From: Streptomyces sp. I6
GTDB lineage: Bacteria > Actinomycetota > Actinomycetes > Streptomycetales > Streptomycetaceae
Direction: 5' to 3'
Assembly: GCA_003725745.1 (NCBI GenBank)
Contig: RHDP01000001.1
Coordinates: forward strand, 3,549,001-3,613,000
Length of the DNA: 64,000 nt
The notes beneath the pieces were generated by a model, which was given only the letters and a program-made list of their open reading frames with translations, had not been told where the DNA came from and did no database searches. Below, piece after piece: positions 12,762-37,302 of the stretch (positions within the stretch are counted from its first letter, which is position 1; every line of letters starts with the position of its first letter). Both the position numbers and the translations under genes were made by a program.

Positions 12762-12768
12762 CTGGGGG

Positions 12769-19541: not shown

Positions 19542-20393
<852 letters not shown>

Positions 20394-20430
20394 GGGGCTT
20401 CCTCGTCAGGGGTCTTCGGTGGCACGGCGG

Positions 20431-21330
20431 TCACCAGCGGTGGGTGAAGTGGTTGCGCAGCCAGATCGCCAGCGAGTTCATCACCAGCAGGATCACCAGC
20501 AGGACGACGATGGCGGCGGAGGCGAGTGCGGTGAACTCGGCGCGGGACTGACTGACCCAGTTGAAGATCTGGATCGGCAGCACCGTGAACTGGCTCTGCA
20601 CACCGGTCGGGTTGAAGGTGATGAAGGTCAGTCCACCGAGCAGCAGCAGTGGCGCGGCCTCCCCGATGGCGCGGGACAGGGCGAGGATCGAGCCGGTCGC
20701 CATGCCGGGCACGGCGGCGGGCAGCACCTGGCGCCGGATGGTCTGCCACTGGGTGGCGCCCAGCGAGAGCGAGGCCTGGCGGATGGACTGGGGGACCGCC
20801 CGGATCGCCTCCCGGGAGGAGATGATCACGATGGGCAGTACCAGCAGGGACAGCGTGAGCGAGGCGGTGAGCACGGTCTGGCCGAAGCCCAGTCCGCGGG
20901 AGATCACGCCGAGGCCGAGGATGCCGTAGACGATGGAGGGGACGGCCGCCAGGTTCTGGATGTTGATCTCGATCGCCCGGTTCCACCACCGGTCGCGGTC
21001 GGCGTACTCCTCCAGGTAGATCGCGGTGAGTACACCGGTCGGCAGGCAGTACAGGGCGGTGAAGGAGATGACCCAGATCGTGCCCGTGATCGCCGACTGG
21101 GCGCCGGCGTTCGACGGGTCGATGACGTCCGGGAAGTTGGTCCACAGCTTCGAGTTCAGCCGGGGCCAGCCCTCGACCACCACATAGGTGAGCAGGCCCA
21201 CCAGGAAGAGCACTCCGATGGCCAGCGAGGCCCACAGGCTGAGCCGGAAGAACCGCTCGCGCAGCGGTGTGCCCCGTCCCCTGAGGCGGGGGACCTCCGG
21301 CGGGTCGGAGGTGACCGCGGTGGGGATCAT
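20431..21330 (-). CDS. pstA: Phosphate ABC transporter permease PstA
   Basis: A 299-residue permease with six transmembrane helices and the permease-ATPase coupling loop (SREAIRAVPQSIRQASLSLG and AIGEAAPLLLLGG). It forms the channel with PstC. Its ATG at 21330 overlaps the pstC stop by four bases. Confidence 0.95.
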   Translation of the reverse strand: MIPTAVTSDPPEVPRLRGRGTPLRERFFRLSLWASLAIGVLFLVGLLTYVVVEGWPRLNSKLWTNFPDVIDPSNAGAQSAITGTIWVISFTALYCLPTGVLTAIYLEEYADRDRWWNRAIEINIQNLAAVPSIVYGILGLGVISRGLGFGQTVLTASLTLSLLVLPIVIISSREAIRAVPQSIRQASLSLGATQWQTIRRQVLPAAVPGMATGSILALSRAIGEAAPLLLLGGLTFITFNPTGVQSQFTVLPIQIFNWVSQSRAEFTALASAAIVVLLVILLVMNSLAIWLRNHFTHRW

Positions 21331-22277
21331 TCGTACACCTCCCGGTAGCGGCGCACCAGGCGGATGCTGATCAGGTTCATCACCAGGGTGATGGCGAAGA
21401 GCAGCAGTCCCACGGCGAAGATCGTCTGGTATCCCGTGGAGCCGGTGGGCAGGTCGCCGATGCCGGCCGCGGCGATGAACGCGGTCATCGTCTGCATGCC
21501 CTCGAGCGGGTTGAAGGTGAGGTTCGGGCGGCCGCCTGCCGCGATGGCCACGATCATCGTCTCCCCGATGGCGCGGGAGACCCCGAGGACGACGGCGGCG
21601 ACGATGCCGGAGAGGGCCGCCGGGAACACGACCCTGGTGGAGACCTGCATGCGTGAGGAGCCCAGGGCGTAGGCTCCGTCGCGCAGCGAGCGGGGCACGG
21701 CGGCCATGGAGTCCTCGGCGAGCGAGGCGATGGTCGGAATGATCATGATGCCCATGACGAAGCCGGCCGAGAGGGCGTTGAAGACCTCCGGCGGGTCGTC
21801 ACCCGGCCAGTTCCGCTGGAGGAGCGGGGTGATGGCCCTGAGCGCGAAGAAGCCGTAGACCACGGTCGGGATGCCTGCGAGGACCTCCAGCACGGGTTTG
21901 AAGATGCCGCGGACCCGGTGACCGGCGTACTCGCTGAGGTACACGGCCGCGCCGAGGCCGAGCGGGACGGCCACGAACAGGGCGATGACCGTGACCACCA
22001 GCGTGGCCGTCACCAGCGGCAGGACGCCGAACTGCGGCGGTTCGAAGAGCGGGGACCAGTCGGTGCCGGTGAGGAACTTCCCGAAGTCCACCTTGCCGAA
22101 GAACTCCACGACCGGCGGGATCAGTGCGACGACGATACCGATCGTGGTCAATACCGAGACGAGTGCGGCGGCCACGAGCAGGGCCCTGACCGCCCGCTCG
22201 GCCCAGCGCGAGTGCGAGCGCTTCAGGAAGCCGGGGCTGCCGGGAGCGGCCCGGCGGCGCTGTGCCCGGGCCGTCAT
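21327..22277 (-). CDS. pstC: Phosphate ABC transporter permease PstC
   Basis: A 316-residue permease with six helices and the coupling region SLAEDSMAAVPRSLRDGAYA and SRAIGETMIVAIAAGG. It pairs with PstA. The ATG at 22277 overlaps the pstS stop by four bases, so the whole transporter is translationally coupled. Confidence 0.95.
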   Translation of the reverse strand: MTARAQRRRAAPGSPGFLKRSHSRWAERAVRALLVAAALVSVLTTIGIVVALIPPVVEFFGKVDFGKFLTGTDWSPLFEPPQFGVLPLVTATLVVTVIALFVAVPLGLGAAVYLSEYAGHRVRGIFKPVLEVLAGIPTVVYGFFALRAITPLLQRNWPGDDPPEVFNALSAGFVMGIMIIPTIASLAEDSMAAVPRSLRDGAYALGSSRMQVSTRVVFPAALSGIVAAVVLGVSRAIGETMIVAIAAGGRPNLTFNPLEGMQTMTAFIAAAGIGDLPTGSTGYQTIFAVGLLLFAITLVMNLISIRLVRRYREVYE

Positions 22278-23242
22278 GGCGTGTGCTCCTCGCGCAGTCT
22301 CGTCAGGTCCCGCCGCAGCTCTGCCTCCTGGCCGGGGCTGAGCGGGACGAACTGGGCGGCCGTGGCGATGTCCGCGTTGTTGTCGACGTAGTACTCGACG
22401 AACGCCTCGACCTCCCTGCGGTCGAGGGCGGCGGCGCTGGGATAGATGAGCAGGGGGCGCGACAGGGGCCGGTAGGTGCCGTTCTGGACGGTGACCCGGG
22501 TGGGCTCGACGCAGCCGTTCCCGCCGTCGATCTTCAGGACCTTCAGCTTGTCCTGGTTCTCCTCGTAGTACGACAGGCCGAAGTAGCCCATACCGCCCTT
22601 GGAGCCGGAGACGCCCTGCACGGTGACGTTGTCGTCCTCGCTAGGGGAGTAGTCGGTGCGGGACCGGCCTTCCTTGCCGTTGACGGCGTGGGTGAAGTAG
22701 TCGAAGGTGCCGGAGTCGGTGCCGGGGCCGAACAGCTCCAGGTCGACGTCCGGGAAGGCCGGGTCGACCTGGTTCCAGTTGTCGATCCGGGAGCCGGGCT
22801 CCCAGATCCTGTGCAGCTGCTCGACGGTGAGGCAGTCGGCGAAGTCGTTGTCCTTGCTCACCACGACGGACAGTCCGTCGTTGGCGATCCGCAGCTCCTC
22901 GTACTTCACGCCCTTCTCCGCGCAATGGGCCTGCTCCTCGGCGGTGATCCTGCGTGAGGCGTCGGCGATGTCGGTCTCGCCGTTGCAGAACTTCTCGAAG
23001 CCGCCTCCGGTGCCGGAGGTGCCGACGGTGATCCGCACGCCGGGGTTGCGCTGCTGGAAGAGCTGGGCGGCCGCCGTGGAGAGGGGGGCCACCGTGCTGG
23101 AGCCGTCCACCCTGACCGTGCCGGACAGCCCGTCGCCTCCGGAGCCGGCGTCGGCGCCGCCGCACGCGCCCGCTGCCACCACGACTGTTGCGGCCAGGAG
23201 CGCGCGTGCCGCGGCCCGGCGCGGGGAACGGGGGGTGTCCAC
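22274..23242 (-). CDS. pstS: Phosphate-binding lipoprotein PstS
   Basis: A 322-residue lipoprotein that captures phosphate outside the cell and hands it to PstCA. A short basic n-region and hydrophobic core end in a lipobox (VVAAGAC, Cys27). The phosphate-binding segments GSSTVAPLS, TSGTGGGFEKFCNGETDIAD and GPGTDSGTFDYF are present. GTG at 23242 gives a normal-length lipoprotein signal; ATG at 23299 would add 19 residues. It belongs to the shorter PstS type (no ~370-residue form). No phoU lies in the operon. Confidence 0.92.
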   Translation of the reverse strand: MDTPRSPRRAAARALLAATVVVAAGACGGADAGSGGDGLSGTVRVDGSSTVAPLSTAAAQLFQQRNPGVRITVGTSGTGGGFEKFCNGETDIADASRRITAEEQAHCAEKGVKYEELRIANDGLSVVVSKDNDFADCLTVEQLHRIWEPGSRIDNWNQVDPAFPDVDLELFGPGTDSGTFDYFTHAVNGKEGRSRTDYSPSEDDNVTVQGVSGSKGGMGYFGLSYYEENQDKLKVLKIDGGNGCVEPTRVTVQNGTYRPLSRPLLIYPSAAALDRREVEAFVEYYVDNNADIATAAQFVPLSPGQEAELRRDLTRLREEHTP

Positions 23243-23299
23243 GTCAGCTCTCGATCCTCGTCTGCGCACTCGCCGGGCGTCCGTGCCGGAGCCCGTCAT

Positions 23300-24212
23300 A
23301 GGGCCGCCAGAAGCGACAAAATACCCCATAAGGTTACGAACGACCAGGGGTTCACGCGACCGACGAGGCCGACGGCCGGGCTGGGGGCCGGAGCTGGGGG
23401 CTGGGTCCGCGGCCGATACGGGAGGGCGGGCGACGGCGGTGACGGCGACACGGGGGACGGGGGACGCGGGACGCGGGACGGGGGGACGGGGGGGCGAGAG
23501 ACCGAAGACGGCGGTCGGCGGGGTTGGGGGTGGCCGAGGGTGGCGGCCCGGGGCCGCATGGCCCGGCCGGGGCGGCGGCGCGGCGGGGTGCGCCCCGGAG
23601 GCGCGGTCCGGGCCGTGTCCGGGGGCGGTGAGGCGTGGGGCGCTCCCTGCGCTCGCTCGCCAGGTCGGGCCGGGGCTGGCCGTGGTCGGGCCGTGGTCGG
23701 GCCGGGGCTGGCCGTGGTCGGGCCGTGGTCGGGCCGGGGGCGGGCCGGGGGCGGATCGTCCCGGTCGGATCGTCCGGCATCGAGTACCTGGAAGGGGCGG
23801 GCGAGGTTCGGGGCGGGACCGTGACCGTGAGGGCAGTGCAGGCAGTGCAGGACGGGGTGGCGCAGGTGCGGGCCGGACAGGACGGGCCAGGGTAGGTGCG
23901 GGCCGGACAGGACGGGGCGGCGCAGCACGGGGCCGGGGCAGGTGCGCGCCGGACGGGGCAGACGGGGCGGGGCCGAGCGCGCCGGGTCCGTGCGGGAGTG
24001 GGGAGTGCGTGTCGGGGATCGCGTGGGCCGGGGCTGTCCGGCGAGGCACCGGGGGATGGGCGAGGCGCCGCGGAGCCACGGGTGCGGTGGCTCCGGGCCG
24101 TGTGCTCACCGGGCACGGCCGGGAGCCACGGCACCCGGTGCAGGCGTCCGTCCGTGCGGGGTCGTTCGTCCCGGCCGCGGCGTCCTGGCGGCGCCGTGCC
24201 GGCCGGTCCGCG
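23300..24212. repeat. Repeat-rich 0.9-kb intergenic region upstream of pstS
   Basis: No gene is supported on either strand. It contains degenerate tandem repeats: GACGGGG/GACGCGG words at 23448-23495, GGGCCGTGGTC/GGGGCTGGCC units at 23668-23745, and GGTGCGGGCCGGACAGGACGGG units at 23868-23925. The only AT-leaning stretch (23310-23345, containing AAAATACCCCATAAGGTTACG) lies immediately upstream of pstS and probably holds its promoter. A GGTTCACGCG word at 23349 recalls a PhoP unit but lies on the plus strand. Confidence 0.6.
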
Positions 24213-25031: not shown

Positions 25032-25703
25032 TCAGGACTGGCCCGCCGTGCGGTCCAGCGGGGGGCGGTCCAGGTGGGGGAGCAGATGGCCCATGCGCTC
25101 CCGCTTGGCCCGCAGATAGACGATGTTCTCCTCGCGGGGCTGCGTCAGCAGCGGGACCTGCTCGCTCACCTCGATGCCGTGCCGCAGCAGAGCCTCCCGC
25201 TTGAGCGGGTTGTTCGACATCAGCCGTACCGACCGGACGCCGAGGTCGTGCAGCATGTCCGCGGCGACGCCGTAGTCGCGGGAGTCGACGGGCAGGCCCA
25301 GTGCGAGGTTCGCCTCGACGGTGTCCATACCCTCCGCCTGGAGTTGCATCGCCTGGAGTTTGGCGAGCAGGCCGATACCGCGCCCCTCGTGGCCCTGGAG
25401 GTACACGAGAACGCCACGGCCCTCGCTGACGATCGCGCGAAGCGCCGCGGACAGCTGGTCGCCGCACTCGCAATGGCGTGACCCGAAGGCGTCACCGGTC
25501 AGGCACTCCGAATGCAGTCGGGCGAGTACGTCCTCTCCCGTGATGTCGCCGTATACCAGCGCGATCTGCTCGTCACCGCGAATGCGATCCAGGTAGCCGA
25601 TGGCGCGGAAAACACCATAAGTGGTGGACAGTTGGACAGTTGCCATGCGCTCGGTGTTCTTGGCGCGAGCGTTCATGCGGAGAGTGCCATCGCTGTCTGT
25701 CAT
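25032..25703 (-). CDS. GTP cyclohydrolase II, Met119 variant (probable FAPy-forming type)
   Basis: A 223-residue GTP cyclohydrolase II. Zinc ligands are in SECLTGDAFGSRHCECG, and the GTP-binding GRGVLVYLQGHEGRGIGL and SNNPLKREAL are intact. The position of E. coli RibA Tyr105 (in KIRAYALQ) is occupied by Met119 (KLQAMQLQ). From published work on the S. coelicolor paralogues, a Tyr-to-Met change at this place makes SCO6655 stop at the formylated pyrimidine FAPy instead of the usual riboflavin precursor. No ribB domain is fused and no riboflavin genes are near, which also argues against a housekeeping role. It diverges from the creatininase-family gene. Confidence 0.92.
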   Translation of the reverse strand: MTDSDGTLRMNARAKNTERMATVQLSTTYGVFRAIGYLDRIRGDEQIALVYGDITGEDVLARLHSECLTGDAFGSRHCECGDQLSAALRAIVSEGRGVLVYLQGHEGRGIGLLAKLQAMQLQAEGMDTVEANLALGLPVDSRDYGVAADMLHDLGVRSVRLMSNNPLKREALLRHGIEVSEQVPLLTQPREENIVYLRAKRERMGHLLPHLDRPPLDRTAGQS

Positions 25704-25840
25704 GGCCGGATCCTATCGGGTAGCCTCTGGCGGGAGTTGTCTTCGGTGTGGAGATTCCGGCTGACCGGTTTTTGAAGCCGGTTCAGATCGGCCGCATCTC
25801 ATGGAACGCAGAAAGTGCACGGAAGGAAAGGGGCGGGAAC

Positions 25841-26614
25841 ATGACCGACCCGCAGGAAAGGCCGCCGGAACCCGGACCGTTGCCGTGGGACACGACCGGC
25901 GACGCGGGTGCGCGGCGGGCGGACGTCGCGGTCCTGCCGATCGGCAGCTTCGAGCAGCACGGCCCGTATCTCCCGCTGGCCACCGACACGTTGATCGCGT
26001 GTGCGATCGCGCGGGAGGTCGCGGCCGCGTACCCGGTCCACCGGTTGCCGCCGCTGACGTTCTCCTGTTCGCACGAGCACTCCGACTGGCCGGGGACCGT
26101 CAGTATTTCCGCCACGACGCTCTGCGCCGTGGTGCGGGACATCGCCGAATCGCTCCGGCGGTCCGGTGTCCGGAATCTCGTACTGGTCAACGGGCACGGC
26201 GGAAACTATGTGCTGCGCAACGTGGTTCAGGAATCCCTCGGCACCGGTACCCGTATGGCGCTTTTCCCGGGACCGGCCGACTGGGGTGCCGCACGCGAAC
26301 GCGCCGGTGTGGAAACACCGTCGCACAGTGATATGCACGCGGGTGAAGTGGAGACGTCGATTCTTCTGCATGACCGTCCCGAACTCGTACGCCCCGGTCA
26401 TATGACCTCCGATTTCCTCGCCGACGACCGGGAGCATCTGCTCACCGTCGGTCTGCGTCCCTACACGGACACCGGTGTGGTCGGCCGGCCTTCCCTGGCG
26501 TCGGCCGCGAAGGGTAAGGAATTGCTCGCCTCCCTCGCCGGCTCCTTCGGCGCGTATTTCTCGCTGCTGGTGCCGGAACGTTCCGCCGAGCCGGACGGGG
26601 AGGGGGCCCGGTGA
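25841..26614 (+). CDS. Creatininase-family amidohydrolase, candidate FAPy deformylase
   Basis: A 257-residue metal-dependent hydrolase. The family metal-binding motifs are SFEQHGPYLPLATDT (Glu, His, Asp), LVNGHGGNYVLRN and MHAGEVETS. Archaeal ArfB, a creatininase-family enzyme, removes formate from FAPy; placing this gene beside a FAPy-type GTP cyclohydrolase suggests the same reaction. Mycofactocin MftE and true creatininases are alternatives, but no mycofactocin genes are seen. ATG at 25841 has GGAAAGGGGCGGG upstream. Its stop overlaps the next gene by four bases. Confidence 0.88.
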   Translation: MTDPQERPPEPGPLPWDTTGDAGARRADVAVLPIGSFEQHGPYLPLATDTLIACAIAREVAAAYPVHRLPPLTFSCSHEHSDWPGTVSISATTLCAVVRDIAESLRRSGVRNLVLVNGHGGNYVLRNVVQESLGTGTRMALFPGPADWGAARERAGVETPSHSDMHAGEVETSILLHDRPELVRPGHMTSDFLADDREHLLTVGLRPYTDTGVVGRPSLASAAKGKELLASLAGSFGAYFSLLVPERSAEPDGEGAR

Positions 26615-27516
26615 GCGGCGTTCCCGCCGGGCGGCCGGCCGGCGCTCTCGACGCGCGGAGCGCCTGGGAGCGGCTGCTGGCCGTACGGACCCGGGCGCAG
26701 GCCGAGGCCGCCGGACTGCGCCGCGACGGGCACGGGCGGTACCGGTGGAGGGACGGCGCCTCCGCCGAGGCGGACCTTCTCGCCGAGCGCTATCTGCCGC
26801 TCTGCCTGGCAGGCCCCCGCTTCACCTTCGCCCAACTCGGCCAGAGCCTCGACGGGTTCATCGCGACCCGCAAGGGCGACGCCGACTACGTCACCGGCCC
26901 CGAGGACCGCGAACACCTGCACCGGCTGCGGGCGCTCTCCGACGCGGTGGTCGTCGGCGCCGGGACGGCCGCCGCCGACGACCCCCGGCTGACGGTCCGC
27001 GCCTGTCCCGGCCCGGACCCGGTGCGGGTCGTCCTCGACCCGCACGGCCGGGTCCCGCCGGAACGGCGGCTGTTCACCGACGGTGCGGCGCCCACCCTGT
27101 GGGTGGTCGGCGCCGGGCAGGCCCCCGCGGACGGTACGGCCGGCGCCGGTGTGGACGTACTGGTCCTCCCCGACTCCGCCGCGTTCGCCCCCCGCCGTCT
27201 GGTGCACGAGCTCGCGCGCCGGGGGCTGGGCCGGGTACTCGTCGAGGGCGGCGGGGTGACCGTGTCCCGTTTCCTGCACGAGGGCGCCCTGGACCGGCTG
27301 TACGTCACCGTGGCGCCGGTGCTGATCGGCGACGGGGTGCCGGGCCTCGCCTTCCCCGGCCCCGATGCGATGCGGGACGCCCTCCGGCCGCCCGTGCGCC
27401 GCGCCTTCCTCGGTGAGGACACCCTCTACGAACTCGATCTTCGTGCGCCGAGGTCCGGTGAGCCACTGGACGGCGAGCACGGCGGCACCGGGGAGGGCGG
27501 CGGCGAAGGCCAGTAG
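26611..27516 (+). CDS. RibD C-terminal-like (dihydrofolate-reductase fold) reductase
   Basis: A 301-residue protein. The first ~70 residues are an uncharacterised head; from residue ~68 the RibD reductase fold is clear: FTFAQLGQSLDGFIATRKGD, DAVVVGAGTAAADDPRLTVR, LVEGGGVTVSRFLHEGALDR and TVAPVLIGDG. It would reduce a ribosylaminopyrimidine with NADPH. There is no deaminase domain. GTG at 26611 overlaps the creatininase stop (GTGA). The last ~25 residues, after LYELDLRAP, are low-complexity and overlap the opposite-strand gene; a missing base near 27440 would instead end it at TGA 27459-27461. Confidence 0.85.
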   Translation: MSGVPAGRPAGALDARSAWERLLAVRTRAQAEAAGLRRDGHGRYRWRDGASAEADLLAERYLPLCLAGPRFTFAQLGQSLDGFIATRKGDADYVTGPEDREHLHRLRALSDAVVVGAGTAAADDPRLTVRACPGPDPVRVVLDPHGRVPPERRLFTDGAAPTLWVVGAGQAPADGTAGAGVDVLVLPDSAAFAPRRLVHELARRGLGRVLVEGGGVTVSRFLHEGALDRLYVTVAPVLIGDGVPGLAFPGPDAMRDALRPPVRRAFLGEDTLYELDLRAPRSGEPLDGEHGGTGEGGGEGQ

Positions 27517-28362
27517 CCCGTAGGCCACGGCAGTGCTCAGCCCCTGGGCACTGCCCAGGCCCGCGGCTCCGAAGGCCCAGGCGGTGACGCCCTCCCTGGG
27601 GCCCCAGCCGCCCACGTTCAGCGGCAGCGCCATCGCGAGCAGCGCCAGCACCATCAGCGGCAGCAGCTCGGTCGCGGCGGCCCTCGATCCGGCGGCCCGG
27701 GCGGCGAGGAGGAACATCCCGAGATGCCCCGCCAGCACCGCGAGGGACGAGATCAGCACCCCGGGGCCGTGGCGCCGGCCGAGGTACGCCACCCGCACCT
27801 CGGCCAGGGTGCCGCGGACCGCACGGCCCCACCGCGAGGCCGCGGGCCTGCCGCGACGCCGTACGGCCACCGCGGTCACCAGGACCGCGGCCGCCGCGAG
27901 GATTGCGGCCGCGCCGGGAGCCGCGGCGAACCCGAGGAGAGCGCCGCCAACCCGGTCCAGCGGCCGGGACGGGTGCGCCACCAGCAGAACGGCGCCGACG
28001 GCCAGCAGGACCACCTGCCCCGCCACCCGTTCGAGGACGACCGCCCGCACCCCCCGGCCCACGGCGCCGGCGCTCCGCCCGTGCCGCACCGCCCGGTGCA
28101 CATCGCCGGCCACCCCACCGGGCAGCGCGGCGTTCAGGAACAGGGAGCGGTAGTAGTCGGCGACGGCCGGGCCGAGCGCGAGCCCGATGTCCAGCGCCCG
28201 CGCCACCAGGCACCATCGCCATGCGCTCAGCACCGTGGTGAACAGGCCGATGCCGAGAGCGGCCAGCAGCGTGGGCGCGTCGATGCCGCGCATCCCGTCC
28301 ACGAACGCGCCGGTGCCCTGCCACCACAGCGTCGCCGCGACCAGCACCGCCCCGGCGAGCAT
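27430..28362 (-). CDS. MprF/UPF0104-like flippase-type membrane protein (both ends uncertain)
   Basis: About 310 residues with seven to nine transmembrane helices typical of the lysylphosphatidylglycerol synthase membrane domain: RWCLVARALDI, DYYRSLFLNAALPGGVAGDVHRA, RAVVLERVAGQVVLLAVG, and ALPLNVGGWGPREGVTAWAFG. It probably moves or houses a lipid-linked molecule. The frame has no stop at the expected place: it reads on antisense through the RibD-like gene to 26461, and a TAG sits at 27426-27428 one frame away. At the 5' end the frame is open into an 18-bp repeat array up to 28758; ATG at 28362 is the first start inside the conserved part, without a ribosome site. Confidence 0.7.
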
Positions 28363-28504
28363 GCCGAGGCGCCCCCGGACCGCCCTGATCGCGGTGTGCC
28401 GCGAGGCCGTGAGGTGCCGCCGCGCGGCCGCGAGACGGCGCCCGGCCGCGAGGTGACGCCCGGCCGCTGGGCGTCCGATCGACGGGAGCCCGGTCACGTG
28501 GTGT

Positions 28505-28640
28505 CCCGCGGTCAGCCGCTGCCGTCCGGGTGTGAGGTGCTGCCCGGGTGTGAGGTGCTGCCCTGCCGTGGGGTGCTGTCCGGGTGTGAGGTGCTGTCCG
28601 GGTGTGAGGTGCTGCCCTGCCGCTAGGTGGCGCCCGGCCA
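28505..28640. repeat. 18-bp minisatellite at the methyltransferase/flippase junction
   Basis: Repeats of GGTGTGAGGTGCTGYCCG, about seven recognisable copies, with degenerate CCGCGAGGTGCCG-like copies spreading to about 28390 and 28740. On the minus strand they encode GQHLTP units in one frame and PHTRTA units in another. Both neighbouring genes appear to run into the array, which keeps two frames open. Confidence 0.85.
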
Positions 28641-28753
28641 TGAGACGCCATCCGGTCACGGGGTCCCGCCCTGCCGCCGGGTTGCGGCCTATCGCCGGGT
28701 GCGCCGGGCGCCGCCCGGTCACGGGGTGCCGCCGGCCCGCCGGGGAGCGCCAG

Positions 28754-29683
28754 CACATCGCTGTGATGCACCATCACGCGCAACTCCCCCGCCTCGCACG
28801 CCTCCAGTCGGCGCCGCAGATAGGCGCCGGACCGGGCGGCGAGGTCCGGCCGCTGCTCGCGTGCCGCGCCGACCCAGCCCCGCAGCCACTCCGCCGTCAG
28901 CCGCCGCGACAACCGCCCGTCGGGCGCGACGCCGTCACCGCCCGCGGCTCCCGGGCCCTCGGCGGCCCCGGCGGCCACGGCGGCCCCGGCGGACTTCCCC
29001 GCCCAGGCGCCGAGCCGCCAAGGGCTGGTCTGCACCCGCACGGTCATGCCCCGGCGGGCGAAGGCGACCGAGGCCGCGGCGACCGCGTCCGGCCCGAGCA
29101 GCCGGCGGCCGTGCTCCTCGCGGCGCTGATGCGCGTTGAAGGCGTCGGTGATCTCGTCGTCCATCGGGTCCGCCGGGGCGAGGTCCACCCGCCCCACCAC
29201 CGACAGCGCCAGCAGCGCCGGGCATCCGGCTCCGGCGCACGCGGCGACCAGCCCGTCCAGCTCCTCCCGGGTGAGCAGGTCCAGCAGCGCGGACGCCGTC
29301 ACCAGCGAGGTTCCCATGAGCCGATCCGCCGTCAGCCGGGAGACGTCCCCGCGTTCCGTCGCGACCGTGACGGGGCTGCCGTCCGCGGCCCTACGGGGCA
29401 GCCGGGCGGAGGCCAGTTCGAGCAGCCGGGGGTCGTGGTCGTGCAGGATCCAGTGCTGGCGGCCGCCCAGCCGGGGCGCCAGCCAGCGTCCCATCGAACC
29501 GGTGCCGCAGCCGAGGTCCCGGATCACGAGCGGGGCGGCCCGGCCGTGCCGTTCCACCGGATCCGCGCCGGGCAGATGGAGCCGCAGCGGCTCCAGGAGT
29601 TCGGGTGCGCGGGCCGCCGCGTCGGCGGCCTCCCTCAGCGCCAGCCACTCCGGCGCGAAACGCGTGACATCGGTCGTACTCAC
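28754..29683 (-). CDS. SAM-dependent methyltransferase (3' end uncertain)
   Basis: Residues ~1-300 form a class I methyltransferase: EWLALREAADAAARA, VIRDLGCGTGSMGRWL (SAM glycine loop), HWILHDHDPRLLELA (ribose-binding acid), TASALLDLLTREEL. It ends naturally near GELRVMVHHSDVLALPG; after that the frame runs through the 18-bp repeat array and into the flippase gene in another frame to 27305, which I do not believe is protein-coding. GTG at 29683 overlaps the glycosyltransferase stop by four bases (GTGA). Substrate unknown; context suggests a modified pyrimidine or its glycoside. Confidence 0.78.
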
Positions 29684-30888
29684 ACGGCCTCCAGGGGATT
29701 GTGCCGGAGCTGTTCCAGCGCCCTGGCCAGGTTCCGGGAGGTCGTCTCCCAGCCGGCCAGTGCGGTACGCCGCCGTCGCGCGGCCGTCTTGGAGCGGTGC
29801 CGTTCACCGGGCTCGGTGAGCCAGCGGCGCAGTGCCGCGGCGAGTGCCGCCGGGTCCCCCGGCGGCACGAGGGTGCCGGGCACGCTGCCGTCGGGCGCCT
29901 GCCCCACGGCTTCCGGAAGCCCGCCGGCGGCCGTTGCCAGCACGGGGACCCCGCGGGCGAGCGCCTCGGTGGCGACCATCCCGTACGTCTCGGTGTGCGA
30001 GGCGAGCAAGAGGAGGTCCGCGGCCGCGTAGCTCGCGTTCAGTTCGGGCCCGGAGCGGGGGCCGGCGAGGTGCACCCGGTTGCCCAGGCCGTGCTCGTCG
30101 ATCAGTTCCCGGAGCCGGGCGACATAGGCGGGGTCGTGGCCGGTCCCGCCGACGAACTCGCATGTCCAGGGCAGCCCGGCGACCGACGCCAGGGCCTCGA
30201 CCAGGAGGTGCTGCCCCTTGCGCGGCGTCACGGAGGCCACGCAGAGCAGCCGGGGCGCACCGCCGTCCGGGACGGCGCCGCCCCGGACGGCAACCGGCCC
30301 GGCAAGGACGGGCGCGCCGGACGCGGTCCCGGGCGCCAGCGGGGCGACGTCCGCGCCGGGGGCGGCGGCGTGCACTCGGTGCGGGTCGAGCCCGTGGTGC
30401 TCCACGAGCCGCCGCGCCGCCCACTCGCCGGGTGCCACGACCACCGCCGCGGCGCGCAGCGTCGTGCGTTCCGCGGCATCCAGTTCCGCGGCCACGGCCG
30501 GGGCGAGACCCGTCTCGTCCCCCAGCGGCAGATGCACCAGTACCGCCAGCCGCAGCCGGCCGGCCTCGGGCACGACGACGTCGGGGACCCCGCACGCGAC
30601 GAGCCCGTCGAGGAGGACCAGGCTGCCGTCCGCCGACTCGCGCAGCACCCGGGCCAGTTCGGCCCGGGGCCCGGCCCCGGGCCGCGGCCACGCCCCCGCG
30701 ACGGCGTTCTCCTGGACCTGCCAGCCGATCCTGGGCAGCTCGCGGCACACCCGCCGGTCGTAGACGTTCCCGCCGCTCGGCGCGGCCGGGTCGTCCACGC
30801 CCCCCGGCATGACGAACCGGACGGCGCGCTCGGGCTCACCGGCGGTGGTGCGGTGCTGGGGGCGCGCGCCCACGGCGTCCGCACTCAC
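29680..30888 (-). CDS. Family 4 glycosyltransferase
   Basis: A 402-residue GT-B retaining glycosyltransferase. The N-terminal half has [21 protein letters not shown] (glycine-rich acceptor loop); the C-terminal half has [38 protein letters not shown] and [20 protein letters not shown] with the E-x7-E-type nucleotide-sugar site. GTG at 30888 overlaps the PTPS-like stop (TGA 30885-30887), which is preferred to ATG at 30912. It belongs to the run PTPS-GT4-methyltransferase-flippase. Confidence 0.88.
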
Positions 30889-31283
30889 AGATCCCGCTCG
30901 TAACTCGCCCATGCGATGTGCGACTCGTGCAGCGTGACCGAGACGCCGGACAGCCCGCGCGCGCCCTCGCCGAGCGCCCCCGCGTGCACCCGGTCCGCGA
31001 GCCGGTCGGCGATCACCTTGGCCAGGAACTCGGTGGAGGTGTTGGTCCCGGCGAACTCGGGCAGCTCGTCCAGATTGCGGTAGTTGAACTCGCTCACCAC
31101 ACTGCCCAGTTCGGCGGTGGCGAGGCCGATGTCGACGACGAGATTGTCGGCGTCGAGCTCGGCGCGGCGGAAGGAGGCGTCCACGAGGTACGTCGCTCCG
31201 TGCAGACGCTGCGCGGGTCCGAAGACCTCGCCCTGGAAGCTGTGAGCGATCATCAGGTGCTCACGGACGGTGACGCTGAACAA
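30885..31283 (-). CDS. 6-pyruvoyl-tetrahydropterin synthase-like protein with altered active site
   Basis: A 132-residue T-fold protein: [71 protein letters not shown] and [14 protein letters not shown]. In PTPS/QueD enzymes the zinc and catalytic segment reads C-x3-HGH; here it is A-x3-HGA, so the catalytic Cys and one zinc His are absent. The start is TTG at 31283, chosen because GGGAGG lies ten bases upstream and the domain begins there. A pterin- or pyrimidine-related role is likely, but the classical reaction is doubtful. Confidence 0.85.
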
Positions 31284-31797
31284 CGGCGGTGACCTCCCGG
31301 TCGTACGGCTCGGCCGCCGGTGGGCGGCCGTGTCCATCAGTACGGCCGGAGAGTACTGGGTGTTCAAAGACGCAGGTCGTTCCGATGACGGCAGCATCCG
31401 GGCGCGTTCTGGGCGGCATGCCGGCAGGGTCCCGGGCGCGTTCTGCGCGCGAAGCCTGCAGGGACCCCGGCCCGTTCCCGGCGGGGTCCGGGGGCGGTCC
31501 GGGGGCGGTCAGGGCGCGTTCCCGGCGGGGTCCGGGGGCGATCTCGGCGGGGTCCGGGGCGGTTCGGCAGAGTGCGGGCGTGGTGTGAACCCGGTTCAGG
31601 CGCGGGGCCGAGCGCCCGCCGGGTGCCGGGTGCCGGGTGCCGGGTGTCGGGTGTCGGGTGCCCGGTGCAGGGTGTGCCGGGTGCCGCGCACCGGTGGCCG
31701 CCCGCGCGACGCCGGGCAGCCACACCTCGGCACCGAGCCGCCCCCGGACAACCGGTGGCCGCCCGCGCGACGCCGGCCGGGGCGGCGTCAGCCCCCG
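31284..31797. other. Intergenic region with tandem repeats
   Basis: No gene is supported. GGTCCGGGGGCGG words repeat at 31490-31560, and a 7-bp array lies at 31621-31662. The PTPS operon promoter is expected near 31290-31400, where TCAAAGACGC and AGTACTGGGTG are the least GC-rich words. Confidence 0.5.
31621..31662. repeat. Six copies of a 7-bp unit
   Basis: GGGTGCC repeated six times in tandem, with two copies reading GGGTGTC. Confidence 0.95.
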
Positions 31798-32778
31798 CTA
31801 CGAGGCGTCGTACACCACCCGGTGGCACAGGCCGGGGAGTTCACCCGCGGCGATCCGGGACATCACCGACGGCAGTTCCTCGAAGGCGCACTCGCCGGTG
31901 ATCAGCGCGTCGAACACGGGGTCGGCGAGCAGTTCGAGCGCGAGCGCGAGACGGTCGGCGTAGCTGCGGCGCGAACGACGGGCCTCCGCCACCCGCCCGA
32001 CCTGGCTGCCGCGCAACACCAGCCGGCCGGAGTGGAAGGCCTCGCCGAGCGGCACGCTGACCCGGCGGTCGCCGTACCAACTCAGCTCCAGCACCGTGCC
32101 CTCCGGCGCGAGCAGTTCCAGCGAACGGGTGAGGCCGGCCTCGGTCGCGCTGGCGTGGACGGCGAGGTCGCAGCCGCCGAGGGCCTCCTCCGGGAGTGCG
32201 AAATCGACGCCGAGTGCCTCGGCCAGGGCGGCCCGTGCGGGGTCCGCGTCGACCAACTGCACCCGCACGCCCGGATAACGGGCGAGCAGGGCGGCGACCG
32301 ATCCGCCTACCATCCCGGCGCCGACGACCGCGATCCGGTCGCCCACCAGGGGCGCGGCGTCCCACAGGGCGTTGACCGCGGTCTCCACCGTCCCCGCCAG
32401 CACCGCCCGTCCGGCGGGCACCGCGTCCGGCACCGGGGTGACCGCGTTCGCCGGAACGACGTAGCGGCTCTGGTGCGGATGGAGGCAGAACACCGTCCGG
32501 CCGAGGAGACCGGCCGGCCCCTCCTCGACGACACCGACGCTCAGATAGCCGTACTTGAGCGGACCGGGGAACTCGCCCTCCTGGAACGGCGCCCGCATCG
32601 CGGTGTACTGGCTCTTCGGCACCCCGCCGCGGAAGACGAGGCTCTCCGTGCCGCGGCTCACCCCGGAGCAGAGGCTGCGCACGACCACGTCGCCCTCGTC
32701 GGGATCCGCCAGCCGAACATTTCGAATCTCGCCCTGACCTGGGGAATTGAGCCAGAAGGCGCGTGCGACGCGCTCCAT
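31798..32778 (-). CDS. Zinc-binding-type medium-chain dehydrogenase
   Basis: A 326-residue MDR-family protein. The NAD(P)-binding region is IAVVGAGMVGGSVAALLARY with VQLVDADPARAALAEALG. The N-terminal GroES-like part has LCSGVSRGTESLVFRGGVP, but the usual GHE zinc motif is not seen. Its relatives include the chlorophyllide/2-desacetyl bacteriochlorophyllide-type dehydrogenases. ATG at 32778 has GGGAGG seven bases upstream. It diverges from the phosphatidyltransferase gene, so the two share a control region and probably a pathway. Confidence 0.87.
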   Translation of the reverse strand: MERVARAFWLNSPGQGEIRNVRLADPDEGDVVVRSLCSGVSRGTESLVFRGGVPKSQYTAMRAPFQEGEFPGPLKYGYLSVGVVEEGPAGLLGRTVFCLHPHQSRYVVPANAVTPVPDAVPAGRAVLAGTVETAVNALWDAAPLVGDRIAVVGAGMVGGSVAALLARYPGVRVQLVDADPARAALAEALGVDFALPEEALGGCDLAVHASATEAGLTRSLELLAPEGTVLELSWYGDRRVSVPLGEAFHSGRLVLRGSQVGRVAEARRSRRSYADRLALALELLADPVFDALITGECAFEELPSVMSRIAAGELPGLCHRVVYDAS

Positions 32779-32827
32779 CCGCGACCTCCCGCTGAACACT
32801 CCCACGACGGTTTACGTTCTGAAAATC

Positions 32828-33685
32828 ATGAGACCGCGCACACCGTACGCGGCACTCGACGACTCTGTCACACATCCGGAGGGTGGTACCGCGGTGGCCC
32901 TGATCGGCACCTACGAGGTTCGGCTGCTGCGCCCGGAGACGGCGGCGGGTGCGGGCGGGCTGGCCGTCCTGCTGGTCCTGCTGGACGCGGCGACCGGACT
33001 GGGCGCCGCCGGATGGCTCGCGGGCGGGGTGTTCACGGCCGGGATGTGGATGCTGCTGACGCGTGCCCTGCACCGTTCGTGGCCGCCCAGGCCGTTCGGT
33101 CCCGCGAACACGGTCACGCTGGTCAGGACGACGCTCGCCGGCGGGGTGACCGCGCTGGTCGCGGAGTCCTTCGCGAGCGGGCCCCGGACCGCCGCGCTGG
33201 TCGCGCTGACCGCTGTGGCGCTGGTCCTCGACGCGGTCGACGGCCAGGTCGCGCGGCGCACCGGGACGGAGTCCGCGCTCGGCGCGCGCTTCGACATGGA
33301 GGCCGACGCCTTCCTCATCCTGGTGCTCAGCATCCATGTCGCCTTCTCCCTGGGAGCCTGGGTGCTGGCGATCGGAGCGATGCGCTACGTGTTCGTCGCC
33401 GCGGCGCGGATACTGCCGTGGCTGAACGGCCCGCTGCCGCCGAGCACGGCCCGCAAGACCGTGGCCGCGCTCCAGGGCGTCGTTCTGCTCGCCGCCGCCA
33501 CCGGCCTTCTGCCGCCCGTCGCCGCCCTGCTGGTCGTCCTCGCCGCGCTGGCGGCCCTCGTCTGGTCCTTCGGCCGCGACATCAGGGGCCTTTGGTACGT
33601 CGGGGCCCGCGGGGGCGCCCCGGTCGCGGGTGCGTTCCGGCACCGCTCGGTGGTGGTACGGGGGCGGGCGCGCCAACGGGTCTGA
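32828..33685 (+). CDS. CDP-alcohol phosphatidyltransferase family protein
   Basis: A membrane enzyme of about 285 residues. The complete family signature D-x2-DG-x2-AR-x8-G-x3-D-x3-D is present (DAVDGQVAR, then G, ARFD, MEAD), so it should move a phosphatidyl-type group from a CDP-activated lipid to an alcohol. Six hydrophobic helices surround it. ATG at 32828 has no ribosome site; GTG at 32894, eleven bases after GGAGG, is an equally good start and would leave more room for the divergent promoter. A strong terminator follows. Confidence 0.9.
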   Translation: MRPRTPYAALDDSVTHPEGGTAVALIGTYEVRLLRPETAAGAGGLAVLLVLLDAATGLGAAGWLAGGVFTAGMWMLLTRALHRSWPPRPFGPANTVTLVRTTLAGGVTALVAESFASGPRTAALVALTAVALVLDAVDGQVARRTGTESALGARFDMEADAFLILVLSIHVAFSLGAWVLAIGAMRYVFVAAARILPWLNGPLPPSTARKTVAALQGVVLLAAATGLLPPVAALLVVLAALAALVWSFGRDIRGLWYVGARGGAPVAGAFRHRSVVVRGRARQRV

Positions 33686-33700
33686 CCCGCCTGGCCGGGT

Positions 33701-33736
33701 GAGGGGGTGGCGGGCCCCCGCGCCCGCCACCCCCTC
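33701..33736 (+). terminator. Perfect 15-bp hairpin after the phosphatidyltransferase gene
   Basis: GAGGGGGTGGCGGGC (33701-33715) pairs perfectly with 33722-33736 around a six-base loop, starting 15 bases after the stop. Confidence 0.9.
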
Positions 33737-34245
33737 CCGGCCGGTGCGGCGGGGCCCCGGCCGTCGGTGTGGCAGCCTTTCGCGCCGGCCGTGCACGGGC
33801 GTAGCCGACGGCGCCTGCCCCGCGGCACCCCGTCTGAGCTTCTGCCCTTCTGCCCGCACACGCACGCCCGTGCCGCGTCAGTCCGGGTACGCCGGCATGT
33901 GCAGCGCCTTCGGCCCGCACACGCGCGCCCGTGCCGGGGCGACCCGCGCACGCGCATCCCACGATCCCGGGCGGTGCCCGGAACGCGGTGCCCGGAACGC
34001 GGTGTCCGGTGGGATCCGGCCCGGAACGCGGTGTCCGGTGGGATCTGGCCCTCCGGCGTGTCCGGGGCCGGGGCATGTGCGCGTGCGCATCCGGGCGGGG
34101 GCCGAGGGCGCGGCCCGTCAGGCCGGGTGGGAGCGCCCGGGCGCGGTCACCTACGCGTGCGCGTCCGCGCGGCCACATATGCACGTGCGTCCGCGCGGCG
34201 CGGCAGGAGATCCGGCGGGGACCCGTGCCCGTACCGGCGAGTCGT
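33737..34245. other. Intergenic region with direct repeats
   Basis: No gene is supported. Around 33974-34050 GGAACGCGGTG(C/T)CCGG units repeat, including a longer pair GGAACGCGGTGTCCGGTGG at about 33995 and 34023. The opposite-strand sulfatase-like frame runs through here only because of its probable frameshift. Confidence 0.5.
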
Positions 34246-36500
34246 TCAGCCCCCGATGCCGATGCCGATGCCGATGCCGATGCCGACGCCGACGCTGCTC
34301 CCGGTCGGTCCCCGTACGCGGACAGGAACCGGTCGCGGAAGGCGTCCATGGGCCAGACCGGGGCGTCCGGGCCGGGCTTGAGGCCGGAGTGCCAGCCCCA
34401 GCCGTCTACCCGGTCCAGCACGGCCGGATCACGGGCGAGGATCGTGACGGGCACGTCCCGGCCGAGCCTGTCCTCCGTGACCGTGGACACCGGCTGGTGG
34501 TCGCCGAGGAACACGAGCACGGTGTTCTCGCCGCCGTACTCCTCCACGTACGAGATGAGGCTCGTCAGCGAGTACTCGATGGAACGCCGGTACTCGGTGC
34601 GGACCCGCGACGGGTCCTTCCACACCTCCTCGGGGTCCTCGCCCTCCTCCTTCACCGAGTCGTACACCGACCCGTCACCGATCTCGTCCCAGCCGAGCGT
34701 CCTCGGGATCGGCGCCCACGGGTTGTGGCTCGACGCGAGCATGATCTCCGCCATCATCGGCCCGCGTCCCGGCCTTCCGTGCTCCAGGCGCTCGAACGCG
34801 GACAGGCTGTACTGGTCCGGCACCGGAGTCCAGCTGAACTTCGGCCCCTTGTAGCCCATGCTGCGCGAGTCGTAGACATGGTCGAGGCCGTAGAACTTCC
34901 CTTCTGGCCAGGACCGGGTGACGCCGGGCATGATGCCGACCGTGCGCCAGGCCCCCGTCTTCCGGAAGGCACCGGTGAGCGTCATCCGGTCGCCGGAAGT
35001 GAGGGTGCGGTACCGCTGCTGGTTCTTGATCCACAGACCCGAGTTGAAGGTCGAGTGCGCCAGCCAGCTCCCGCCGCCGTATGTCGGGGAGGTGAGGAAC
35101 CCGCTCCGGGAGGACCAGCCGGCGTCGCCGAGCCGGCGGTCCGCGTCCGCGAGCAGCGCGGAGACCTGCGGCGCGATCCCCGGGTCCTGGAGCGCGCTGC
35201 GCCCGTAGCTCTCGATGAAGGCGAAGATCACGTCCTTGCCGCGCAGCCCGGTGAGCAGCCGGTCGGCCGGTAGGTCGGCGAAGTCGTCGTCGGCGGCCTC
35301 CCGGGCGAACTCCTCCTTGTCCCGCAGCCCGGCACGCACCTGCTGCACCCGGTCCTGGAGGAACTCGGCCGAACTGCCTGCGGCGACCGGCACGGCCGTG
35401 TTCCGCACACCCAGCGCGGCGCACAGGACCCACACGGTCCCGAGCACGAGTGTGCCTCCCACGGCCGCGGCGCTGTGACGTGCCAGGACGCGGTTCAGCC
35501 GGACGGCCGCCCAGGTCATGAGGCCGAGCACCAGGACGACCAGGGCGAGGGTCGCGATCACGACGCCTATCGCGCCCGCAGGGCCGATGGAGTCCTGGAG
35601 GAACGACTGGCCGTAGTCCAGGAGAACCCAGTCGAGCACGAGGTCGAAGGGCCGCTTGTAGACGGCGTCGAACCCCAGGTCGAGCAGCTTGAGCACGGCC
35701 ATCAGGCCCAGGCCCGCACCCGCGAGTGCCGGTACGACGCGCCTCACCCGGCCGGGTCCGCCCGGCCCCAGGAGCAGCAGTACGGCGACGCCGCAGATCC
35801 CCTCCACCGGTATGCGCAGGAACACGGGCGCCGTGAGATGCCCGAGCTTGGTCGGCAGCAGCAGTGCGGCGAGCACGGCCGCGGCGGCCAGGGCGGTGGC
35901 GCCATGGCGGAGGACGAGCGCCGCGACCGGGTACCGGCCCCGCCGGCCGCCGGGGCCGGAGGCCGCGGCAGGGTCGCCTCCACCGTCGGGGCGGGTGCAT
36001 GCGTCCGGCGTGCTGTCGGACCCGGTGCCGTGAGCGCCGCCATCGCTCGCACCATCCCGAGCGGCGTTCTCCGCGGTGTCCCGACCGGTGTCCCGAGCGG
36101 CGTTCTCGCCTCCGTCCCTACCGGCGTCCCGGGCGGCGAGCCTGCCCCGGTCTTCACCTTCGTCCAGGCCCTGGCTCTGGCCCCGGTCCTGACTTTCGTC
36201 TCGGCCTTCGTCCCGAGCTTCGTCCTGGCCCTGGTCCTGACCTTCGCCCTGAGGTTTGTCGTGGCCTTCGTCCTGACCGGCTCTCGACCGGGGCGCGGCC
36301 CTCTCCGCCCCGGTTCCGCCGTCCGAACGGCCGTCCCGGGGCCCGTCGGGCGCGGGACGGGCGACTGCGTTGTCGCCGCCGTCCGTGCAGTCGTCCGTCG
36401 GGGTCTCCGCGGCCGGAGCCGCGGCCTGGGCCGGCAGCCGGCCAGAACGTGTCCAGAGCGCCACCCGAAGGTCCTTTCGCGCGGGGCCGTTGGTCGGCAT
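34246..36500 (-). CDS. LTA-synthase-like sulfatase/phosphatase-superfamily membrane protein (probable 3' frameshift)
   Basis: About 751 residues. A disordered, highly charged head (~190 residues; GQDQGQDEARDEGRDE-type repeats) precedes five transmembrane helices (about 200-385) and a large extracellular alkaline-phosphatase-superfamily domain with FIESYGRSALQDPG (nucleophile region), SSHNPWAPIP and VLVFLGDHQPVS (metal site). The fold resembles lipoteichoic acid synthase and related phosphoglycerol transferases. The true end is probably TGA 34246-34248, reached if the CCCCC run at 34250-34254 had one more base; unshifted it would add ~220 low-complexity residues to 33582. ATG at 36500 was chosen; GTG at 36518 is possible. 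Confidence 0.82.
34255..34296. repeat. Hexanucleotide repeat at the 3' end of the sulfatase-like gene
   Basis: Five copies of GATGCC followed by GACGCC and GACGCT encode an alternating Ala-Ser tail. Slippage by whole units would keep the frame. Confidence 0.95.
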
Positions 36501-37302
36501 GACGGCAGAGGCCGCCACGCCCGCGACTACCTGTACGGCTCGTCGACGGCATCAGTTCAAGCGCACGGGCAGCGGGGGACGACATCGCATCGCGATCGCC
36601 GGGTCCGGAGCAAGCCCCGGATGCGATCGCCGGGTCCGGAGCAGGCCTCGGATGCGATCGCCGGGTCCGGAGCAGGCCTCGGATGCGATCGCCGGGTCCG
36701 CAGCAAGCCCCGGACGCGACCGCCGGGTCCGGAGCAGGCCGCGGTCCGTGTCCGCGGCGCCCGCCCGCTCACCTCGGCGGTCGTCGGTCCGGGCCCCGGA
36801 CCGCGCCCACGCCACCTCCCCGGCGCGGTCGTTCCGGGCCGTGGTCCGGGGCAGAGCAGGGCTGGGCAGGGCAGGAGCGCGTGGGTGCCGCTCCCGCAGT
36901 GGCACGCCCAGCGGCTCCGTCCTTGCGCCGCCGCGCCACTCGGCCCCTGTGTCCCTGCGCCCCCCGACCGGCCAGTCGGCGGGGGCGGTCCGGACATCTG
37001 CCGGATGGTCCGCCCGCGCGGCCGTGGCCGACGCTGGAGCACATGAGGACCGACGCACAGCAGGCCGTGCCGCCCGCCGCAACCGCGGTGGACGGCTCCC
37101 GTACGCCCGCGCCGCCGACGGACCGGTTCCTCGGGATCGTCCCCGTCCGCCCCCGCGTGATCCACGGCATGTCCGCGGCCCGCGCGGGCCGCGTCGCGGC
37201 CGCTCGCGTACCTGCTGTGCCCGGCCGTACACACCCGCTGATCAGCTGACCGGCGGCAGGAGCCCGGCGCGGTCCGCCGGGCCCGGAAGGAGGTCCATCG
37301 CC
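36501..37302. other. 0.8-kb intergenic region with a 31-bp tandem repeat
   Basis: Apart from the repeat array (36592-36745) no feature is supported. A short frame at 37043-37249 (68 residues) was considered as a partner of the downstream gene but has no recognisable domain. The end has a very good ribosome site for the next gene. Confidence 0.5.
36592..36745. repeat. Five tandem 31-bp repeats
   Basis: Copies begin at 36592, 36623, 36654, 36685 and 36716. Each has the form GCGATCGCCGGGTCCGGAGC followed by a less constant half, and the first eight bases GCGATCGC are a palindrome. There are no spacers, so it is not CRISPR. Confidence 0.95.

Follow-up and report, generated by a model that had tools for sequence, protein, structure and literature searches.

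A recurrent Streptomyces gene set around a GTP cyclohydrolase II and a PTPS-like protein: a candidate GTP-derived pathway apart from riboflavin synthesis

Ten genes, here called A to J (Table 1), lie at positions 25032–36500 of a 64,000-nucleotide stretch (the window) of the 7.05-Mb genome of Streptomyces sp. I6. They encode a GTP cyclohydrolase II (GCHII), a creatininase-family protein, a reductase of the RibD C-terminal type (RibD_C), a flippase-like protein, a methyltransferase, a family 4 glycosyltransferase (GT4), a protein similar to 6-pyruvoyltetrahydropterin synthase (PTPS), a dehydrogenase, a phosphatidyltransferase and a protein resembling lipoteichoic acid (LTA) synthase, and are considered here as a candidate pathway that starts from GTP and departs from riboflavin synthesis. 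Frame plots together with Pfam and NCBIfam scans bear out the ten-gene locus described in an earlier sequence-only reading of this DNA. The nearest named relative is Streptomyces wuyuanensis, the GCHII of which is 98% identical. The strands are mixed and the locus is not a single operon; A/B and H/I are divergent pairs, and besides the overlaps given in Table 1, F and G share 28 bases. Open reading frames (ORFs) of the plus strand over 27500–36000 were considered as genes and rejected, since they have no Pfam match and the G+C frame plot puts most genes on the minus strand.

Table 1. Genes of the locus, with positions in the window
Gene	Predicted product	Position	Strand	Basis and remarks
A	GTP cyclohydrolase II, 223 amino acids, Met119 in place of the active-site Tyr	25032..25703	-	PF00925, 219.7 bits
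B	Creatininase-family amidohydrolase, predicted formamidase for the formamidopyrimidine nucleotide FAPy	25748..26614	+	PF02633, 220.8 bits
C	RibD C-terminal-type reductase without deaminase domain	26611..27516	+	PF01872, 132.5 bits; start overlaps B by 4 bases
D	Flippase-like membrane protein, LPG_synthase_TM domain only	27379..28392	-	PF03706, 108 bits; both ends uncertain
E	Class I S-adenosylmethionine-dependent methyltransferase	28736..29683	-	PF13649, 29.4 bits; C-terminal end uncertain, frame enters repeat tract
F	GT4 glycosyltransferase	29680..30912	-	PF00534, 111 bits; overlaps E by 4 bases
G	PTPS-like T-fold protein	30885..31283	-	PF01242, 78.9 bits; likely TTG start at 31283
H	Medium-chain dehydrogenase, BchC-like, apparently without zinc	31798..32778	-	PF00107, 33.5 bits; bchC 42 bits, under cut-off
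I	CDP-alcohol phosphatidyltransferase	32828..33685	+	PF01066, 54.3 bits; divergent from H
J	Alkaline-phosphatase-superfamily (LTA-synthase/sulfatase-like) membrane protein	34293..35936	-	Similarity to a Rhizobium sp. SL42 protein

Within Streptomyces these genes stay together. With the GCHII protein alone, 80 loci are found, of which L081 and L082 are set aside as ordinary GCHII relatives; five of the remaining 78 are cut by a contig end. All 73 uncut loci keep A and D to I, with the same order and strands in 72 of them, L072 being rearranged. The creatininase gene is present in 77 of the 78, and L072 has a remnant of it. In a separate search of 199 Streptomyces genomes, orthologues of H, B and A occur together in 90 and are all absent from 106, three genomes being discordant; A and B are both present in 91 genomes and both absent from 108. 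The cut-offs for this count were chosen by us (dehydrogenase, E ≤1e-130; creatininase, at least 65% identity and E ≤6e-88; GCHII, at least 69% identity), GCHII is scored by identity and not by its Met or Tyr residue genome by genome, and at E 1e-60 creatininase relatives appear in 105 of the 199 genomes, 14 of them without the cluster. Two of the discordant genomes are represented by small contigs, a short one with H, G and a RibD_C match (G776, locus L172) and a 3.3-kb one with A and B, from a fragmented genome (G790, L173). Because related genomes are not independent, the count describes a tight association and not its probability. The 17 control loci round paralogous dehydrogenases (16 from Streptomyces and one proteobacterial) have none of the partners except for one 91-bit GCHII match. 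Co-conservation, on which the sequence-only reading had staked itself beforehand, is found for most of the genes when the 73 loci are set against these controls, and the grouping is more than chance.

The set also recurs in other bacteria and partly in haloarchaea, which points to a widespread natural molecule. The gene profiles were seeded from the window and 11 of the 18 plasmid loci (L083–L093), so that a match in those rows is in part built in; the Pseudomonadota, the distant actinobacterial and the remaining Streptomyces loci are non-seed rows, and 30 loci with 1.5-kb flanks (L094–L123) are left out of the counts. Among 398 Pseudomonadota genomes, 26 match the profile of H (alignment A2) at E ≤1e-92. 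The 14–20 kb read round each contain the dehydrogenase and the PTPS-like gene in all 26, GT4 in 25, the methyltransferase in 24 (fusions included) and RibD_C in 22, followed by the phosphatidyltransferase in 12, GCHII and the flippase-like gene in 11 each, cytochrome b561 in seven, the creatininase in six and a sulfatase-like gene in four. GT4 is fused to the methyltransferase at six of these loci, and four of the six with a creatininase also have GCHII. Of 31 plasmid records 18 were read, 16 of them annotated (all except L166 and L170). The annotated ones include similar sets from Rhizobium sp. SL42, Peteryoungia, Agrobacterium, Methylosinus, Palleronia, Thiodictyon and Microbacterium, and shorter ones from haloarchaea. 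Nine of the ten window genes have matches at four Rhizobiaceae plasmid loci (L087, L164, L165 and L170) out of five read, the creatininase alone being missing; L091 is the exception.

The six haloarchaeal loci have the dehydrogenase in six, the PTPS-like gene and the methyltransferase in five each, the phosphatidyltransferase in four, GT4 in three, a creatininase in one and RibD_C in none. Three of them have GTP cyclohydrolase IIa (GCH III), the gene of which overlaps the dehydrogenase gene in each case; the one GCH III checked scores 276.5 bits with the Pfam GCH_III family, and none is found in the stretch read from Haloarcula marismortui (L089). Distant actinobacterial loci were sampled as 11 (L152–L161 and L163) of 29 genomes with a dehydrogenase at E ≤1e-30, below the close group. 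All 11 have the dehydrogenase, GT4, RibD_C and the PTPS-like gene (ten for the last at a stricter per-domain count), and in three GCHII is fused to RibD_C, one fusion being confirmed with Pfam. The methyltransferase profile has no match at any of the 11; L156 carries a class I methyltransferase gene beside GT4, with counterparts in seven related loci. L156 also has, next to the core (12215–12805), a gene for dihydroneopterin aldolase (FolB), with tblastn counterparts in 7/7 other loci compared within this actinobacterial lineage. Wherever a non-Streptomyces locus contains GCHII, RibD_C is present too (21/21). New here is the dehydrogenase/PTPS-like pair accompanied by GT4, methyltransferase, RibD_C and GCHII in varying number across phyla, with a shorter set devoid of RibD_C in haloarchaea.

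This pair, G and H, is near-constant across phyla. The PTPS-like gene directly follows the dehydrogenase gene in 52 of 57 loci called non-Streptomyces, a group that includes the Streptomyces plasmid L088. In four misses (L135, L143, L150 and L155) the distance is distorted by stop-to-stop frames that overlap, and in the fifth, L092, there is no PTPS-like match. In a tree of 63 dehydrogenase rows, the root of which is arbitrary, Streptomyces is one clade (support 100/89) within an actinobacterial group nested among proteobacterial rows, which suggests transfer between phyla. The usual zinc ligands, Cys and His-Glu, appear in H as Ser and Tyr/Gly when alignment A2 is compared by eye with the usual motif. 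By its profile match to 3d7j (210.8 bits), G is a clear orthologue of Streptomyces coelicolor SCO6650 (PDB 3D7J). The catalytic Cys of PTPS is absent from G, and among 133 cluster proteins its site is Ala in 125, Glu in seven and a gap in one. The third zinc ligand, the second His of the HGH motif, is replaced by Ala in G and in 117 of the 133; only the 16 copies from haloarchaea and distant actinobacteria have His there. None of the 133 has the His of the Asp-His pair, and three retain its Asp. The presumed base-binding residue, the Glu that anchors the pterin in PTPS, is invariant (133/133; Glu158 of G, numbered in the 170-amino-acid ORF 30885–31397). Since the Cys, zinc and Asp-His residues are lost and Glu158 is kept, G is predicted to be a base binder rather than a PTPS catalyst, and should bind a 2-amino-4-oxo pyrimidine or a pterin. 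In the accessible part of a review of the PTPS family, a subfamily PTPS-V is left without a clear function (PMC5041015).

GCHII encoded by A passes the family cut-offs (PF00925, 219.7 against 23.3 bits; TIGR00505, 224.9 against 205.85). Its motif KLQAMQLQ contains Met119, which in alignments with solved structures falls on the Tyr of the E. coli-type GCHII 2bz0 (KIRAYALQ) and on that of RibBA 4i14 (KLQAYQLQ). The second GCHII of the genome, a RibBA (L001), has Tyr at this site, and the earlier assignment of Met119 to the site of E. coli RibA Tyr105 holds. Met occupies the site in 83/83 Streptomyces cluster GCHIIs checked and in the window with all 78 orthologues found through GCHII; the 21 cluster GCHIIs outside Streptomyces have Tyr without exception. 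In S. coelicolor SCO6655, Met in place of this Tyr reportedly leaves FAPy as the end product. From gene order we infer that A is the orthologue of SCO6655, and it is predicted to stop at FAPy monophosphate. FAPy had been taken as the hallmark of the pathway, which the Tyr of the 21 non-Streptomyces GCHIIs and the GCH III of half of the haloarchaeal loci do not bear out.

The creatininase gene adjoins the GCHII gene and is coupled to the RibD-like reductase gene, as the sequence-only reading had pointed out. Against NCBIfam, B scores 136.6 bits with MftE, 101.6 with creatininase and 38 with ArfB, all under cut-off; at 38 bits against a cut-off of 180 (NF033501) it is not filed as ArfB and is predicted only to act like it. 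A creatininase of at least 60 bits is present at 82 of the 83 Streptomyces loci with Met-type GCHII, the row of the window being entered from its Pfam score. A rule that ties the creatininase strictly, in both directions, to a FAPy-making cyclohydrolase is half upheld, in that Met goes with a creatininase (82/83) and Tyr does not exclude one (4/21); as the Met rows form a single clade, the Fisher value for this association is not independent evidence. The nearest non-Streptomyces dehydrogenase in the tree, that of L150, sits with a Tyr-type GCHII and RibD_C and with no creatininase, and for this reason Met-type GCHII with a creatininase looks like a later replacement in the Streptomyces line. 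Such a swap is the best argument for B as a predicted FAPy formamidase, an argument with a gap because four Tyr-type loci carry a creatininase too. Creatininase-family formamidases acting on FAPy do exist in bacteria, BrbF being shown to be active in the accessible part of its report (PMC9478397). In C, PF01872 is the sole domain found, with scores under the NCBIfam cut-offs, and the best solved match is 6p8c, named 2,5-diamino-6-ribosylamino-4(3H)-pyrimidinone 5'-phosphate reductase. RibD_C is present in 26 of the 78 Streptomyces loci. In the window (26461–28758) and in several relatives, the open frame of the flippase-like gene extends antisense over the RibD_C gene for most or all of its length.

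The membrane and lipid genes are recurrent accessories. The phosphatidyltransferase I has the complete CDP-alcohol phosphatidyltransferase motif DxxDGxxARx8GxxxDxxxD, read in its translation as DAVDGQVARRTGTESALGARFDMEAD. Its gene is found in 73/78 Streptomyces, 12/26 Pseudomonadota and 11/18 plasmid loci (the four haloarchaeal ones among them) and in 0/17 controls; in a profile scan of the 11 distant actinobacterial loci, neither it nor the flippase-like or LTA-synthase-like gene is found. J has no Pfam or NCBIfam match of its own and is 36% identical over 518 amino acids (E 6e-99) to the sulfatase-like protein of the Rhizobium sp. SL42 cluster, which itself scores 23.1 bits with PF00884, under the cut-off of 25. 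It is an accessory gene, present in five of the 78 Streptomyces loci. A sulfatase-like ORF just before the dehydrogenase gene of Haloarcula marismortui (L089, 7993–8862; PF00884, 20 bits, under cut-off) may be its archaeal counterpart. The weight that had been given to the lipid genes is not borne out by these numbers. Of the MprF-like protein proposed earlier, the flippase-like membrane domain of D (PF03706) stands and the lysyl-phosphatidylglycerol synthase domain does not, so that no whole MprF is present. The coordinates of D cover its conserved part, both ends being uncertain because the frame stays open. Tandem repeats of 18–54 bases (73–95% match) at 28398–28655 separate the methyltransferase and flippase-like genes, and as the methyltransferase frame runs open through this tract, the ends of both genes are uncertain. 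A 6-base repeat (6.7 copies, 34253–34292) on the C-terminal side of J codes for a Ser-Ala run, and a 31-base repeat (4.9 copies, 91% match) lies at 36592–36744. On the other side, an ABC transporter set (19542–24109) with an ATPase, permeases and a 611-amino-acid PBP_like_2 protein adjoins the locus. The N-terminal half of this last protein is without explanation, and of the 78 Streptomyces loci L003 and L004 alone show the binding protein. At proteobacterial loci an OpgH/MdoH-like glucosyltransferase gene often adjoins the dehydrogenase gene (L086, L091, L128, L135, L137, L139, L143, L144, L146 and L148).

We read the locus, with about even confidence, as encoding a dedicated GTP-derived pathway that branches off the first steps of riboflavin synthesis. 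Gene content, conservation, fusions and active-site residues are observed, and every chemical step that follows is inferred from them. GCHII of the Met type would convert GTP into FAPy, which B would deformylate to 2,5-diamino-6-ribosylamino-4(3H)-pyrimidinone 5'-phosphate, and RibD_C, where present, would reduce this to the ribityl form. Because no deaminase gene is seen, the 2-amino-4-oxo edge would be kept; G would bind this edge and work with H on the polyol or pyrimidine part. Glycosylation would fall to GT4 and methylation to the methyltransferase. Here and in many other versions the phosphatidyltransferase would add a phosphatidyl group to the product, which D would carry across the membrane for modification outside by J; attachment to membrane or lipid is the weakest part of this reading, and we consider it doubtful. 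The intermediate common to all versions is probably 2,5-diamino-6-ribosylaminopyrimidinone phosphate, because Tyr-type GCHII, Met-type GCHII with a creatininase-family formamidase and GCH III can all lead to it, although the haloarchaeal GCH III route would need a deformylase encoded elsewhere in the genome. The GCHII-RibD_C fusions tie the opening of GTP to the reductase and, together with RibD_C at 21/21 non-Streptomyces GCHII loci, support the ribityl step. Our best guess for the product is a glycosylated, methylated aminopyrimidine, often membrane-linked. A cytochrome b561 gene is linked at seven of the 26 Pseudomonadota genome loci (L134, L135, L137, L143, L144, L146 and L148) and at five of the 18 plasmid loci (L084, L087, L164, L165 and L170), hinting at a redox role. 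A more specific picture, which we think unlikely as a whole, is a class of membrane-anchored glycosylated, methylated ribitylaminopyrimidines (or pterins) of Actinomycetota, Pseudomonadota and haloarchaea, in which a phospholipid or archaeal lipid would bear a head group made from GTP and active in redox reactions or signalling, served in some proteobacteria by the linked cytochrome b561.

Several observations weigh against a dedicated pathway of this form. RibD_C is missing from 50 of the 76 Streptomyces loci in which its place is covered (the 78 less L067 and L077, cut before it) and from all six haloarchaeal loci, so the reduction step may be skipped or borrowed there; of the reduction proposed in the sequence-only reading, the gene in the window stands and generality does not. 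GCHII is absent from the stretch read at 15 of the 26 Pseudomonadota loci, and many core loci lack lipid genes. The third discordant Streptomyces genome (G861, locus L171) keeps D to I without orthologues of the cluster-type GCHII or creatininase at the cut-offs used. As for the creatininase, the Met-type locus L072 has a remnant only, the four Tyr-type loci (of 21) that carry one have a protein about 33% identical to B, two further Pseudomonadota loci have one without GCHII, and 14 Streptomyces genomes without the cluster have one 54–59% identical to B. The distribution of RibD_C brought our confidence down from slightly above even and raised a little that in a pterin product, which we still regard as unlikely. 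By this alternative the deformylated ribosylaminopyrimidine would pass through an Amadori rearrangement and cyclize on the PTPS-like protein, the dehydrogenase would reduce a side-chain carbonyl, and the pterin would be glycosylated, as in the pterin glycosides of cyanobacteria, and methylated. The invariant pterin-anchoring Glu favours it, as does a weak match of RibD_C to one dihydrofolate reductase (E 1e-4), and the haloarchaeal and most Streptomyces loci, lacking RibD_C, would leave the ribosyl form that the Amadori step needs. Where RibD_C makes a ribityl chain, however, that step would be blocked, and the GCHII-RibD_C fusions place reduction straight after the opening of GTP. The FolB neighbour of L156 and its relatives also speaks for a pterin, but only one lineage shows it.

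That lipid genes are missing from core loci (all three from the 11 distant actinobacterial ones, the phosphatidyltransferase from 14 of 26 in Pseudomonadota) would suit a soluble product with the lipid genes as neighbours of separate function. This is compatible with the other readings and seems improbable given that the phosphatidyltransferase gene recurs beside the core in the proportions above and in no control locus. FAPy could instead enter the product intact, formyl group included, the creatininase acting otherwise, for example in later opening of a cyclic amide. The fixation of Met in the Streptomyces clade (83/83), the reported FAPy stop of SCO6655 and the creatininase beside four Tyr-type GCHIIs would fit, but Tyr in every cluster GCHII outside Streptomyces and the shared presence pattern of GCHII and creatininase orthologues in the 199 genomes make it quite improbable. 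We give still less credit to the idea that the locus serves as a back-up or export route for flavins, riboflavin included. GCHII, a formamidase and RibD_C are enzymes of riboflavin type, and BrbF of Sinorhizobium serves riboflavin synthesis, as the accessible part of its report states (PMC9478397). A scan confined to ORFs of the window and to the features annotated at 16 plasmid loci, however, reveals no deaminase, lumazine synthase, riboflavin synthase or 3,4-dihydroxy-2-butanone 4-phosphate (DHBP) synthase; a RibBA is already encoded in the genome, and the near-constant genes are those for the dehydrogenase, the PTPS-like protein and GT4. The dedicated pathway thus remains the reading we favour. 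The direction of the sequence-only reading was right, and its weight lay too much on FAPy and the lipid genes.

If true, a pathway that starts like vitamin B2 synthesis and ends elsewhere, in two bacterial phyla and partly in archaea, would mean that a natural product or cofactor has been overlooked. Among the matches listed in a literature search, which took in few subscription papers and preprints, none deals with the cluster or its product. The locus offers a role for the reported FAPy stop of SCO6655, for SCO6650 (3D7J), to which no function is assigned, and for creatininase genes beside cyclohydrolases, and the varied entry enzymes narrow the predicted common intermediate and make the pathway directly testable. 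SCO6650–SCO6655 of S. coelicolor is a comparable system through G. Its numbering would fit the order PTPS, GT4, methyltransferase, flippase, creatininase and GCHII of RibD_C-less loci such as that of S. fungicidicus; by this order the window differs in adding RibD_C and the LTA-synthase-like gene. SCO6650 is said to lack the zinc and the triad and to have no PTPS activity. In the accessible parts of two expression studies, SCO6655 is listed in a table of genes mostly upregulated in stationary phase (PMC2853524), and SCO6652 in one comparing mycelial stages, with values of 0.8, 4.3 and 4.1 (PMC3610822). The archaeal start of riboflavin synthesis by GCH III, ArfB and ArfC resembles the predicted route in a FAPy former, a creatininase-family deformylase and reduction before deamination. 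It differs in that the locus has GCHII, in the score of B with ArfB far under the cut-off, and in that no later riboflavin genes are seen beside the locus. BrbF of Sinorhizobium and Brucella is likewise a creatininase-family protein acting on FAPy in a bacterium, as is predicted for B. It is likened to B by family and role and not by sequence, and in the accessible part of its report it feeds riboflavin synthesis and its gene adjoins MarR and CobW-like genes (PMC9478397). G shares family PF01242 and the base-anchoring Glu with QueD/PTPS (COG0720), from which its relatives differ in the loss of the catalytic Cys and in the zinc and Asp-His residues described above. The azapteridine clusters of the toxoflavin type have, to our knowledge, no core of PTPS-like protein, dehydrogenase, GT4 or phosphatidyltransferase, but in them GCHII and RibD-like enzymes are diverted to a natural product with a methyltransferase, as in the present locus.

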